NCBI GenBank assembly: GCA_018303075.1
Contig: JAGVYW010000043.1
Span: forward strand, 7,189-56,995
Direction of reading: 5' to 3'
DNA: 49,807 bases
DNA from: Candidatus Woesearchaeota archaeon
GTDB taxonomy: Archaea; Nanobdellota; Nanobdellia; Woesearchaeales; DSVV01
The translations under genes and the position numbers were made by a program. Numbering within the stretch: the stretch's first letter is position 1; every line of letters begins with the position of its first letter. Below, one piece after another: positions 6,621-49,807 of the stretch. Below the pieces are notes generated by a model. It was not told the origin of the DNA. It worked only from the letters and a program-made list of their open reading frames with translations, and did not search any database.

Positions 6621-6631
6621 AGAAGAAAAAA

Positions 6632-6647
6632 CGCCGCCGCCCAGATT
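6632..6647 (-). repeat. duplicated 3' end of tRNA-Ser
   Basis: CGCCGCCGCCCAGATT is identical to 6766-6781 (tRNA-Ser 3' end), with the adjoining A6 also shared. Confidence 0.9.
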
Positions 6648-6652
6648 CTCAC

Positions 6653-6722
6653 CAACTTTTTTAAGAAAAACCTTGACTAAAAACACGTTAAGTAAGGCAT
6701 TCACTTCGTTCAGCCTTACGAA
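6653..6722 (-). repeat. two-hairpin element, copy C (downstream of tRNA-Ser)
   Basis: Minus strand AGTTCGTAAGGC-tgaacgaagtgaat-GCCTTACTTAACGTGTTTTTAGTCAAGGTTTTTCTTAAAAAAGTTGG; parallels copies A and B. Confidence 0.75.
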
Positions 6723-6765: not shown

Positions 6766-6849
6766 CGCCGCCGCCCAGATTTGAACTGGGATATCCTTTC
6801 GGAAACTAGCTCTCAAGGCTAGCGCATTACCAGGTTGTGCCACGGCGGC
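6766..6849 (-). tRNA. tRNA-Ser(UGA)
   Basis: GCCGCCG acceptor, anticodon loop CTTGAGA within CTAGC/GCTAG stem, long variable arm, TTCAAAT T-loop, G73. Confidence 0.92.
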
Positions 6850-31986: not shown

Positions 31987-32093
31987 GCGGCTGTAGTATA
32001 ATGGTTAGTATTCCGCCTTGCCAAGAATTGCAGAGATAATGCAGATCATTCCGCAAGCAGGCGGTAGTTCGGGTTCGAATCCCGGCAGCCGCA
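31987..32093 (+). tRNA. tRNA-Gly(GCC) with anticodon-loop intron
   Basis: GCGGCTG/CAGCCGC acceptor, CCGCC-TTGCCA | about 35-nt insert | A-GGCGG, T-arm CGGGTTCGAATCCCG. Confidence 0.92.
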
Positions 32094-32109
32094 TTTTATT
32101 TCTTTTTTT

Positions 32110-32178
32110 AGTCGTACAACTGAAACGAAGTGGAAGTTGTACTTAGTTTGTTTTTGCCAGCTTTTTCTTAAAAAGCTG
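32110..32178 (+). repeat. two-hairpin element, copy A (downstream of tRNA-Gly)
   Basis: AGTCGTACAAC-tgaaacgaagtggaa-GTTGTACTTAGTTTGTTTTTGCCAGCTTTTTCTTAAAAAGCTG. Confidence 0.8.
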
Positions 32179-32204
32179 TTCGGGTTCGAATCCCGGCAGC
32201 CGCA
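32178..32204 (+). repeat. duplicated 27-nt 3' end of tRNA-Gly
   Basis: GTTCGGGTTCGAATCCCGGCAGCCGCA is identical to 32067-32093. Confidence 0.97.
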
Positions 32205-32221
32205 TTTTTTCTTTAAACAAG

Positions 32222-32332
32222 ACGAATTCCACTTGTCTATTGACAGGTGGTGGAATTCGTAAGCGTCAAGAACCACCTTAGGTGTTATCGATAAGCATGC
32301 CACTGGTAGTGGTTCTTGACAAAACAGAAATC
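32222..32332. repeat. two consecutive long-stem hairpins
   Basis: ACGAATTCCAC...GTGGAATTCGT and GTCAAGAACCAC...GTGGTTCTTGAC. Confidence 0.75.
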
Positions 32333-32362
32333 AATATAAAGATTCTTATTCCTATCATTAAA

Positions 32363-32680
32363 ATGCGCTCAAAACAAAAATATTCAGTAAAGGATGAATA
32401 TAAGGAAATTGCTCTTGGAAGAATTCATGAATTATTTAAGCAAGCTGATATTCAATTTCATGATAATGAGAAAGAACTTGCAAATAGATATATGTATTTA
32501 GTTAGAAGACTAGCGATGAAATATAAAGTTAAAATTCCTTCTGAATTAAAAAGACAAATATGCAAGAAATGTTTGCATTATCTTGTTGCTGGGGAAAATG
32601 CACGCGTAAGAACTACTGGAAAAGTAATTGTTTATAGCTGCAAAGACTGCGGACATCAGAATAGGATTGGATATAAGTAA
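32363..32680 (+). CDS. rnp4: RNase P protein component 4 (Rpp21)
   Basis: ALGRIHELFKQAD...RYMYLVRRLAMKYKVKIPSELKRQICKKCLHYLVAGENARVR, C-x2-C zinc ribbon. Start at MRSKQKYS preferred; the upstream 27 codons overlap a hairpin. Confidence 0.9.
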   Translation: MRSKQKYSVKDEYKEIALGRIHELFKQADIQFHDNEKELANRYMYLVRRLAMKYKVKIPSELKRQICKKCLHYLVAGENARVRTTGKVIVYSCKDCGHQNRIGYK

Positions 32681-32771
32681 AAATCCCAATCGCAGCAAGC
32701 TGCGGGGCATTCAATAACAAAAAAGGGATTTTTACTCTTAAAAATGGGTCGCAGCAGAGCTGCGGGGTATT
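32673..32771 (-). repeat. 99-bp structured dispersed repeat, copy 2
   Basis: Exact reverse complement of 1-99; its first bases overlap the Rpp21 stop codon. Confidence 0.95.
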
Positions 32772-40399: not shown

Positions 40400-42868
40400 A
40401 TGATACTTCGTTGGCTAAAACTGCAGAATATTCGCTCCTATCTTGAAGAAGAGATTGTTTTTCCAGAAGGCTCTGTACTGCTGTCTGGAGATATTGGCTC
40501 TGGAAAGACTACAATTTTGCTTGCAATAGAATTTGCACTGTTTGGGTTTAATAAAAATGATCTTACTGGAGATTCCCTCTTAAGACATGGAAAACATGAA
40601 GGAAATATTGAACTTTGTTTTGATATTGAACAAAAAAAGATTGTTGTCAAGCGATTCTTACGAAGATCAAATGCAGTTAAGCAGGAGCAAGGTTATATTA
40701 TGATTAATAATGAACGTATTGATTGTACAGCTGTTGAATTGAAGACTAAGATTCTTGAATTGCTTGGTTATCCTTTATCATTGGTTTCTAAAAGCAGAGA
40801 TATTTTATTTCGATATACTGTTTATACACCGCAAGATGCAATGAAGATGATTCTGCAGGAAGATAAAGAATATAGATTAGAAACACTCAGAAAACTGTTT
40901 AATCTTGACAAGTATAAAAAAGTGAGAGAGAATCTGCAGATAGTGATTAAGGATTATAAAACTCATAAGCAGCTATATGAGCAACAAGTAGAGTATCTAT
41001 TTGAGAAACAGAGTTTGCTGCAACAATATATAGTAAAGAAAAGCAATCTTGTTTCAGATATTGTTGTGTTGAAAAAAAAACTAAAAGAAATAACTGATAT
41101 AATACAATTGCAGAATAAAGCTGTTGAGGAATGTTTGCTTATAATTAATGAACAGAAGAGACTTGCAAACGAAATTGCAGTTGAGAAAGAAAAGCTGAAT
41201 AATCTGCATTCTTTGATAAAAAAAGATAAACAGCATATTCAAGAAACATCTCAGCAGCTGACTGAGTTAGAAAAGAAAAAGAAGGAAATAAAGATTGAAA
41301 AAATAACTAAAAAAAGTAAAGATGAGATAATAACTGAAATAAAAAGAGATGAAGCTGAATTAATGCAGATAAAAGAGCAATTGATTAAACTCCAGCAGCA
41401 GCAGGAATTTGCAGAAAAAAGGCTGCTATATGCAGACAGTGAAATTGGAAAATATAAGCAGCAGATTGTTGTTTTCAGCAAGAAGAAAGAAAGAAAAGAT
41501 ACACTCCAGAAAAATATTGAACAAAAAGAACAGCTACAGGATGAGATTGCTGCGAGAGAGCAGATGCTGCAGAAGCTGTTGCTGCAATTATCAGAGGTTG
41601 AAACAACAGCAGCTATCATCCAGACAAGTATTGATAATATCAAAGCTCTTAACAAATGTTTTACATGCCTGCAGACAATCACTGATGATTATAAAGAAAA
41701 AGCAGCTCTTGATGCAGAGCAGAAAAAGAAAGAGCTGCTTGAGAGAAAAGAGATATTATTGCAGCAGAAAACAAAAAATCAGAAATCTTTTGGAGAGTTA
41801 CAGGAAAGAATGAAGCAGCTGCTGATAGATGAGAGGGAATATATTCTATTGAATCAAGAGATAAGGCAATTAGAGGAGAAAACTGCTCTTCTTCATGAAA
41901 AAGAAAAAGAAGTTATGCAGATAGAAAGAGAAAGAAAAGAGATAAAGATTCTTATTGAACAAATTTTTAATGGAGAGGTTCTATATGAAAAGATAATTGA
42001 GAACAACAAATTATTAGAGCTTGTAAGAAAGTATGAACAATCACTGCAGGAGCTGCAGCTTATCTCTGCAATGATCACTGAAAAGCAGGTGTTTGTCTCA
42101 AAAATAAATGAACTATTGCAGCAATATGAAAAACAAGAAAAAGATCTGCATTTATTTATTGAACAAAAACAACTGCTGATCAAAGATATTGACAAATTAA
42201 ACAGTGAGTTCTTAGAAAAGAGAAAATTACTTGAAAAAATGATTATTGACGAAAAAACAGTTTCATCAGAATTGACAAAGCAAACAACTGAAGCGCAATT
42301 TCTTGACAAAGATATTGAACGAATCAACAAAGAGATTGAGGACAAAAATAAAATTAAAGAGAAAATTGCTGCAGTTAACAATCTTATCAATTGGTTTTCT
42401 GATAAATTCACACCTCTTACAGTATTGCTTGAAAAACAGATCATGCTTACAATTTATAGAGAATTCAATGAATGCTTTATTACATGGTTCACTACACTTA
42501 TGGATGATGAATCAGTTACAATTAGATTAGATGAAGATTTCACACCAATAATCCACCAAAATGGTTATGATACAAGCTTTGAATATTTATCTGGCGGAGA
42601 AAAAACTGCAGTTGCTCTTGCATATAGATTAGCATTAAATAAAGTAGTGAATGATTATGTAAGTTCAGTGATGACAAAAGATATAATTATCTTAGACGAA
42701 CCAACAGAAGGCTTTAGCTATGAACAATTGGATAAAATGAAAGATGTTCTTGATCAGATCAATGTTAAGCAAGTAATCATTGTAAGCCATGAAGCAAAGA
42801 TTGAGAGTTTTGTTCAGAATATCATTCGTCTAAATAAATCTGGACATGTGAGTAAGGTAGTGAGTTGA
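40400..42868 (+). CDS. rad50: Rad50/SbcC-like SMC ATPase
   Basis: Walker A GDIGSGKTTIL, CFTC zinc-hook, signature YLSGGEKTAVALAYRLAL, Walker B DIIILDEPTEG. Confidence 0.93.
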   Translation: MILRWLKLQNIRSYLEEEIVFPEGSVLLSGDIGSGKTTILLAIEFALFGFNKNDLTGDSLLRHGKHEGNIELCFDIEQKKIVVKRFLRRSNAVKQEQGYIMINNERIDCTAVELKTKILELLGYPLSLVSKSRDILFRYTVYTPQDAMKMILQEDKEYRLETLRKLFNLDKYKKVRENLQIVIKDYKTHKQLYEQQVEYLFEKQSLLQQYIVKKSNLVSDIVVLKKKLKEITDIIQLQNKAVEECLLIINEQKRLANEIAVEKEKLNNLHSLIKKDKQHIQETSQQLTELEKKKKEIKIEKITKKSKDEIITEIKRDEAELMQIKEQLIKLQQQQEFAEKRLLYADSEIGKYKQQIVVFSKKKERKDTLQKNIEQKEQLQDEIAAREQMLQKLLLQLSEVETTAAIIQTSIDNIKALNKCFTCLQTITDDYKEKAALDAEQKKKELLERKEILLQQKTKNQKSFGELQERMKQLLIDEREYILLNQEIRQLEEKTALLHEKEKEVMQIERERKEIKILIEQIFNGEVLYEKIIENNKLLELVRKYEQSLQELQLISAMITEKQVFVSKINELLQQYEKQEKDLHLFIEQKQLLIKDIDKLNSEFLEKRKLLEKMIIDEKTVSSELTKQTTEAQFLDKDIERINKEIEDKNKIKEKIAAVNNLINWFSDKFTPLTVLLEKQIMLTIYREFNECFITWFTTLMDDESVTIRLDEDFTPIIHQNGYDTSFEYLSGGEKTAVALAYRLALNKVVNDYVSSVMTKDIIILDEPTEGFSYEQLDKMKDVLDQINVKQVIIVSHEAKIESFVQNIIRLNKSGHVSKVVS

Positions 42869-43051
42869 GGTGTTTGGTAATTGGTTAGTCGCACAACTTT
42901 TTTTTGAAAAGTTGTGCTTAGTTTCTTTTTGGCCAGACTTTTTTGTAAAAAGGCTGGTGATGTTCAAAATATCATTCGTCTAAATAAATCTGGACATGTG
43001 AGTAAGGTAGTGAGTTGAGGTGTTTGGTAATTGGTTAGTCGCACAACTTTT
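42811..43051 (+). repeat. 150-bp period tandem duplication of the rad50 3' end
   Basis: 42811-42901 repeated at 42961-43051 with one mismatch; includes the last 18 codons plus stop. Confidence 0.95.
42887..42957 (+). repeat. two-hairpin element, copy B (downstream of rad50)
   Basis: AGTCGCACAACTTTTttttgAAAAGTTGTGCTTAGTTTCTTTTTGGCCAGACTTTTTTGTAAAAAGGCTGG. Confidence 0.8.
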
Positions 43052-43188
43052 CAAAAAAAAGTGAGTTAGAACTGCAGTTATGAGTCCTTATGAGTAGTGT
43101 ACAACATGTTTGAAACATAAGATCATTATTCTCATTCGAAAGCTATTTAAATAAGTAAGACTAGAAAAAATAAATTGCAGGTGATTGA

Positions 43189-49219: not shown

Positions 49220-49318
49220 AATACCACGCAGCTCTGCTGCGACCCATTTTTAAGAGTAAAAATCCCTTTTTTGTTATTGAATGCCCCGCAGCTTGCTGCG
49301 ATTGGGATTTTTACTTAT
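49220..49318 (+). repeat. 99-bp structured dispersed repeat, copy 3
   Basis: 98/99 identical to 1-99 (single C to A change). Confidence 0.95.
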
Positions 49319-49764: not shown

Positions 49765-49807
49765 CCGCAAACTTTTACAAAAAGTTTGATCAAAAGACAT
49801 AGATCGG
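49765..49807 (-). repeat. two-hairpin element, copy D (truncated by window edge)
   Basis: Minus strand TCTATGTCTTTTGATCAAACTTTTTGTAAAAGTTTGCGG; 9-bp stem CAAACTTTT/AAAAGTTTG with TGT loop as in copy B. Confidence 0.6.

Follow-up and report, generated by a model that had tools for sequence, protein, structure and literature searches.

A gene-end-duplicating element of about 70 nt with two hairpins in Woesearchaeales archaea

The window, that is, the whole 49,807-nt stretch of DNA that was analysed, belongs to a 1.24-Mb assembly of a Candidatus Woesearchaeota archaeon in 44 contigs (genome G000). Between a tRNA-Gly gene and an exact copy of its end, two hairpins and a T-rich linker span positions 32098–32177. 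The features of this locus, all on the forward strand, are as follows.

31987–32093 (+): tRNA-Gly(GCC), intact and with an intron, on the hairpin-1 side (Rfam RF00005, 53.1 bits)
32067–32097 (+): left copy of a 31-nt direct repeat, the tRNA 3' end plus TTTT (repeat search, family D4, 100%)
32098–32113 (+): T-rich spacer from the left repeat copy to hairpin 1 (from the sequence)
32114–32142 (+): hairpin 1 (GTACAACT/AGTTGTAC) with an apical C-GAA-G mini-hairpin (from the sequence and fold)
32143–32157 (+): T-rich linker TTAGTTTGTTTTTGC (from the sequence)
32158–32178 (+): hairpin 2 (CAGCTTTTT-CTT-AAAAAGCTG), the fixed 3' end of the element (from the sequence and fold)
32178–32208 (+): right copy of the 31-nt direct repeat, a dead copy of the tRNA 3' end (family D4)

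All parts of the two-hairpin layout that the first-pass annotation had described between tRNA-Gly and the copied tRNA end are present. The copy, which it had put at 27 nt, is perfect as claimed but 31 nt long: the repeat GTTCGGGTTCGAATCCCGGCAGCCGCATTTT, made up of 27 nt of the tRNA and TTTT, is identical at 32067–32097 and 32178–32208. The arms of hairpin 1, GTACAACT (32114–32121) and AGTTGTAC (32135–32142), enclose the loop GAAACGAAGTGGA, and the final base of hairpin 2, a G, is at the same time the first base of the right repeat copy. A covariance model of the element (R1) matches positions 32111–32179 with 60.6 bits. Beyond the right copy lies an ORF (32282–32680) whose translation looks like an RNase P protein of the Rpr2/Rpp21 type. 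Two further repeats lie in the window. A separate palindromic repeat of ∼96–113 nt directly follows the right copy of the 31-nt repeat (32212–32324); it has more than 20 near-identical copies in its own genome and single weaker copies in genomes G001 and G002. The other, 99 nt long and with ends that resemble GCAGC/GCTGC hairpins, occurs at 1–99, 32673–32771 and 49220–49318 with 99–100% identity.

The same architecture had been proposed for three other loci of the window, and it was recovered at each of them, at 6653–6722 (−), 42888–42956 (+) and 49768–49795 (−), the last with only hairpin 2 inside the window. Their features are as follows.

6625–6653 (−): partial copy of a tRNA-Ser 3' end, beyond the second element copy (family D7; mismatches at copy positions 3–5)
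6653–6722 (−): second element copy, after tRNA-Ser (covariance model R1, 89.7 bits)
6766–6849 (−): tRNA-Ser, intact, on the hairpin-1 side of the second copy (Rfam RF00005)
42811–42912 (+): left duplicate at the third copy, the 3' end of a Rad50-like ORF (40400–42868) with a hairpin-1 arm (family D1, 94%)
42888–42956 (+): third element copy, after the Rad50-like gene (covariance model R1, 50.2 bits)
42961–43062 (+): right duplicate of the Rad50 3' end at the third copy (families D1 and I22)
49768–49795 (−): fourth element copy, hairpin 2 near a tRNA (covariance model R1, positions 41–70)

The remainder of the fourth copy (L022) lies past the window edge, across an assembly gap. At the third copy, the repeat search indicated that the hairpin-1 loop in the right duplicate is inverted relative to that in the left duplicate. 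ARAGORN called one tRNA in the window versus three by Rfam.

A self-BLAST of the region against its own genome returned further copies, mostly spanning hairpin 1 to hairpin 2. A first structural alignment yielded no consensus fold because short and long types of hairpin 1 could not be aligned, and a consensus pattern for hairpin 2 was too strict and missed copies; it was replaced by a covariance model built from eight unaltered copies. The covariance-model search for further genomic copies that the first-pass annotation had suggested returned 18 in G000, and there are 17 in its sister G001, the only other genome of the genus. Across the order, 45 of 120 genomes contain matches at E ≤ 0.1, the weakest of which may be chance. 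The contigs of G000 end or have N gaps within tandem element units (at the ends of C7 and C20 and at C15:56990–57030), so the true copy number exceeds the assembled one. The hairpin-2 motif with its T-run also has matches in Methanosarcina, Methanovirga, Diapherotrites, Micrarchaeota and Woesearchaeota, and the archaeal motif is often tandem (L202 consists of five units of 83 nt); in Clostridia and Cloacimonadota, a possibly homologous motif has no direct repeats in most of the inspected copies. Three IMG/VR viral contigs (L185, L186 and L187) carry the hairpin-2 motif as well. Rfam holds no family for the element, with only tRNA and one SSU rRNA locus reaching threshold, and the literature searched, which covered few subscription papers, yielded no account of either the element or its sequence. 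One covariance-model match (L120, G096:C59:28200–28850) is located inside a locus with a match to archaeal 16S rRNA and may sit in an intron of the rRNA.

Two other hairpin types were also seen. At L104, L176:11449–11570 and L025, another 3' hairpin (CAATTNNCGCTTCCAATTGGCGAAAGAATTGG) replaces hairpin 2 after hairpin 1, and these loci also show gene-end duplication or a tandem unit. Hairpins with the same GAACGAAGTGA loop and other arms (for example, ATAAAAATT-GAACAAAGTGA-AATTTTTATG) lie over presumed start codons at L148, L162, L165, L170, L171, L174, L177, L178 and L181, and are possibly translation-start hairpins that expose a Shine-Dalgarno-like GTGA.

Comparison with the sister genome revealed empty sites of both polarities. 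The orthologous site of the focal locus in G001 contains a single tRNA-Gly end, with neither the element nor the right copy of the 31-nt repeat, and homology extends to both sides (79% over 383 nt on the tRNA-Val/tRNA-Gly side and 88% over 363 nt on the Rpr2 side); an empty site in a sister genome was what the first-pass annotation had proposed to look for. The tRNA-Asp site shows the reverse: in G001, the tRNA is followed by the element and a copy of the tRNA end, and in G000 the site is empty, with tRNA-Asp running directly into the flank that comes after the right copy in G001. A tRNA-Ser locus of G000 (C7) contains the element, with the repeated unit running off the contig end, and its G001 orthologue is without it. 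Since the focal site is empty in G001 and the tRNA-Asp site has the opposite polarity, these differences are read as insertions. Precise loss by recombination between the repeats could also give an empty site, and the direction at any single site is unproven; given polarity both ways and the many copies, mobility is the simplest reading. The empty site with two-sided synteny, the reverse polarity at a second tRNA and the many further copies bear out the earlier suggestion of a tiny non-autonomous element, for which the absence of an empty-site junction and of further copies had been named as contrary findings; both the junction and the copies were found.

Insertion is accompanied by duplication of the target. 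Flanking direct repeats (score ≥14) were detected for 40 of 70 copies in comparison with 2 of 400 random positions, an excess that excludes chance; no repeat could be detected at the remaining 30 copies. In 36 of the 40 repeat-flanked copies, the repeat begins 0–7 nt after hairpin 2, and the duplication, which is 15–108 nt long, ends 0–63 nt ahead of the conserved part of hairpin 1. Therefore, the element is fixed at its hairpin-2 end and ragged at the other, and the length of the duplication is free. Wherever it could be assigned in repeat-flanked copies, the intact gene is on the hairpin-1 side and the dead copy of its end on the hairpin-2 side. In every case, a conserved core of only ∼70 nt lies between the repeats, and no copy with more than ∼100 nt between them was seen.

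The targets are varied. They include tRNA 3' ends, tRNA 5' ends in antisense (L087, L117, L139 and L143), the 5' end of a protein gene (L010) and the 3' ends of protein genes, named here from their translations as TFS-like (L013), RFC-like (L015) and Rad50-like (in the window), together with L089 and L092. Other copies are located inside tRNA D- or T-loops and have no long repeat (L012, L115, L116, L118, L125 and L128), and at L137, L138, L140 and L141, four weak copies that lack a repeat adjoin a tRNA on the hairpin-2 side. Introns occur in the tRNAs of this lineage at the T-loop (GTTCAAA^...TGAAAG^TCC), at the D-loop and at the anticodon loop (for example, L166:2612–2791). An origin of the element from tRNA introns was considered and set aside, as the T- and D-loop copies look inserted into introns that were already present (compare the tRNA-Asp empty site). 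At L089, the left copy of a protein-gene end has silent changes at four sites, and at each of these the right copy is identical to the G000 orthologue, which indicates that the two copies parted after duplication in place, with the left copy staying functional. This in-place copy weakens another candidate, the acquisition of foreign gene ends by Campbell-type integration. At the orthologous site L010/L100, hairpin 1 is present in both genomes, and hairpin 2 with the copied gene end, which matches the gene of G000 itself, is found only in G000; thus, the second half can join a resident hairpin 1 later.

In alignments of the right and left repeat copies that start at the base of hairpin 2, the mismatches are concentrated close to the junction. 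The mismatch rate is 6% at positions 1–2, 32% at positions 3–6, 8% at positions 7–12 and 5% at positions 13–45; the excess at positions 3–6 over positions 13–45 has a Fisher p of 4e-22 (3e-7 when tRNA 3' ends are excluded). At least one change at positions 3–6 is present in 31 of 41 copies, including L011, L094 and L096, whose repeats are otherwise identical over 40–60 nt. The focal copy has zero changes there and looks young. This scar may stem from synthesis restarting with errors, from a short tail that the element brings along (a GTGA tail is common to eight copies) or from survivorship, in which changes next to the hairpin would stop deletion by slippage. Random filler in the first six bases was rejected, as the control predicts 43% mismatch at positions 1–2 and the observed value is 6%. 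RNA-guided homing with the right copy as guide was likewise rejected: the hotspot spares positions 1–2, and no TnpB-type zinc ribbon passed the cut-off in the 20 genomes searched.

The arms of hairpin 1 vary extensively, with 55 distinct 5' arms among 70 copies, while their complementarity is kept and the loop is conserved. Its pairs comprise 499 Watson-Crick versus 44 G-T pairs, counts that include a minority of copies in which the stem finder chose a different stem. Of the 55 copies with a scored triloop, 36 have an apical C-GNA-G triloop. The same apical loop occurs in the ultra-stable mini-hairpins of the d(GCGAAGC) type, known as a chemical structure and not as a repeat family; GNA loops form extraordinarily stable DNA mini-hairpins, and d(GCGAAGC) melts at 78°C (PMC4686876). 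The GNA loop favours a role of the hairpins as single-stranded DNA, with which a role as RNA would still be compatible. A relation to integron attC sites was discarded, as the arms, judged by eye only, do not fit the R' and R'' boxes.

We searched the genomes for an enzyme that might move the element. Y1 transposases are present in 26 of 61 relatives, and PF01797 is absent from G001 and G046, which have 17 and 14 copies, respectively. Reverse transcriptase is present in G001, G002, G046 and G115 and was not found in the incomplete assemblies of G000, G076, G092, G096, G040 and G018. In 20 genomes, there was no TnpB-type zinc ribbon (PF07282) over cut-off and no Cas1 (PF01867). Single absences mean little in assemblies that are variably incomplete; the overall pattern means more, and in the genomes tested the element does not follow the distribution of Y1 transposase, reverse transcriptase, TnpB or Cas1. 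The element may move by itself or through a viral enzyme that is missing from these genomes.

With modest confidence, we lean towards a non-autonomous DNA hairpin element of ∼70 nt that is inserted by a DNA-synthesis (templated-insertion) process, a mechanism that we infer from the pattern. Hairpins 1 and 2 would work as single-stranded DNA, and the element would be added during DNA synthesis or repair, when a strand leaves its target in the AT-rich flank of a gene. The departed strand would copy or capture the element, stopping exactly once hairpin 2 folds, and synthesis would restart 15–108 nt back along the target, so that the gene end is copied a second time. Such templated insertion would involve no cut-and-paste by an integrase or transposase, and its sole scar would be the mutation-prone junction beside hairpin 2. 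What templated insertion leads one to expect is found at these loci, namely junction errors by the switch point and donor copies elsewhere in the same genome, and template switching at a hairpin would give an inversion such as that of the hairpin-1 loop in the third copy. Against it, the conservation of the two-hairpin layout across the order suggests that a dedicated machine could recognize this layout, and the side of the duplication is fixed relative to the orientation of the element, for which template switching needs the added assumption that strands leave in intergenic DNA; the copies without a detectable repeat also count against it, as does the fact that the searches yielded no enzyme or pathway. 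It is a tentative possibility that the element is a selfish hairpin without an enzyme of its own, with its two hairpins causing the host DNA polymerase to drop off at the base of hairpin 2 and restart behind it, thereby planting a copy and duplicating the gene end.

Reverse transcription of a structured element RNA at a nicked target would make the element SINE-like, and the classical hallmarks of SINEs and target-primed retroelements are all observed: the 3' end is fixed, the 5' end ragged and the target duplication variable in length. Folded hairpins with covarying arms are found as well. We nevertheless consider this unlikely: G000 and five other carriers yielded no reverse transcriptase, the sharp mismatch cluster at positions 3–6 of the 3' junction is unexpected, and the loop is of the DNA-stable GNA type. 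The paired hairpins and the palindromic character of the family are typical of mobilization in trans by a transposase or by a single-strand transposase (IS200/IS605, REP/RAYT-like), and Y1 transposases do occur among the relatives; the copy-rich G001 and G046 lack them, however, PF07282 and Cas1 matches are missing as described above, and duplications are present. IS200/IS605 insertion is not known to leave a target duplication, and we regard mobilization of this kind as rather improbable.

Less credible again is a minimal integrative element, in which a tyrosine recombinase inserts a tiny circle with a gene end (attP) into an attB gene and so creates attL and attR, the pair that the first-pass annotation had seen in the repeats. 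In its favour, tRNA genes are often hit, one particular side always keeps the gene intact, and the left and right copies do differ, by silent changes where the target is a protein gene. Archaeal tRNA-targeted elements (SSV, pTN3 and pT26-2 integrases) likewise leave an intact tRNA on one side and a truncated copy on the other; archaeal integrases are known to use tRNA 3' and sometimes 5' halves (PMC8371274). In contrast to these, the element is only ∼70 nt long, has no integrase and no constant att core, and also hits all kinds of protein genes. The variety of targets, which extends over tRNA 3' and 5' ends, introns and protein-gene ends, argues against one integrase attL/attR pair: dozens of unrelated genes are targets of one element, every locus duplicates a different sequence, the duplications of 15–108 nt have no shared core or common overlap sequence, the repeat starts at the hairpin base, the right copy at L089 was made in place and is not foreign, and no insert longer than ∼100 nt was seen between the repeats. 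The attL/attR claim is thus not upheld in the integrase sense. If the element were instead a structured RNA module with a function downstream of tRNAs, as had also been raised, or a terminator there, the repeat would be incidental; we judge this very improbable as the main explanation. Many copies directly follow tRNA genes, a hairpin with a T-run is terminator-like, and L137, L138, L140 and L141 adjoin a tRNA without a repeat. A secondary role of this kind may exist; yet it would leave unexplained the presence or absence at orthologous tRNAs, the exact duplication of the gene end and the DNA-type GNA loop, as well as those copies that are oriented away from tRNA 5' ends, lie in antisense, are found where protein genes start or interrupt tRNA introns.

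The element resembles several known classes without coinciding with any. Like MITEs and REP/BIME sequences, it is short, protein-free, dispersed, hairpin-forming, intergenic and present or absent between relatives. MITEs, however, have terminal inverted repeats, short fixed target duplications and a recognizable transposase, whereas the element starts with a TTCGT-hairpin and ends with hairpin 2, its ends are not mutual inverted repeats, its duplications vary from 15 to 108 nt, and the searches turned up no matching transposase; in REPs, long duplications are absent. Casposons and Cas1 integrases share with it insertion at tRNA 3' ends, target duplication and the placement of new units next to the gene, but Cas1 is absent from the 20 genomes searched. 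Casposon duplications are ∼14–15 nt long. Overall, no prokaryotic transposition system among those tested matches the duplication pattern or supplies a candidate enzyme. Copied inserts, local duplications and junction mutations are also shared with Pol theta templated insertions; Pol theta and microhomology-mediated repair produce short inserts copied from elsewhere, local duplications, junction mutations and synthesis on stem-loops (PMC11292364). Pol theta insertions are one-off scars of any sequence, whereas here the same sequence goes in again and again, and it is for this reason that it behaves as an element.

These copies belong to an insertion element that has been active recently and extends across an order of archaea with tiny genomes. 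It accounts for a large number of partial tRNA copies, which automated pipelines would list as tRNA fragments, and is a source of tandem duplication and of assembly breaks at gene ends in these genomes. Its insertions provide a clean set of sites for testing whether hairpins alone can drive insertion. If the enzyme-free reading is true, the element would spread through errors of replication or repair and not by transposition.
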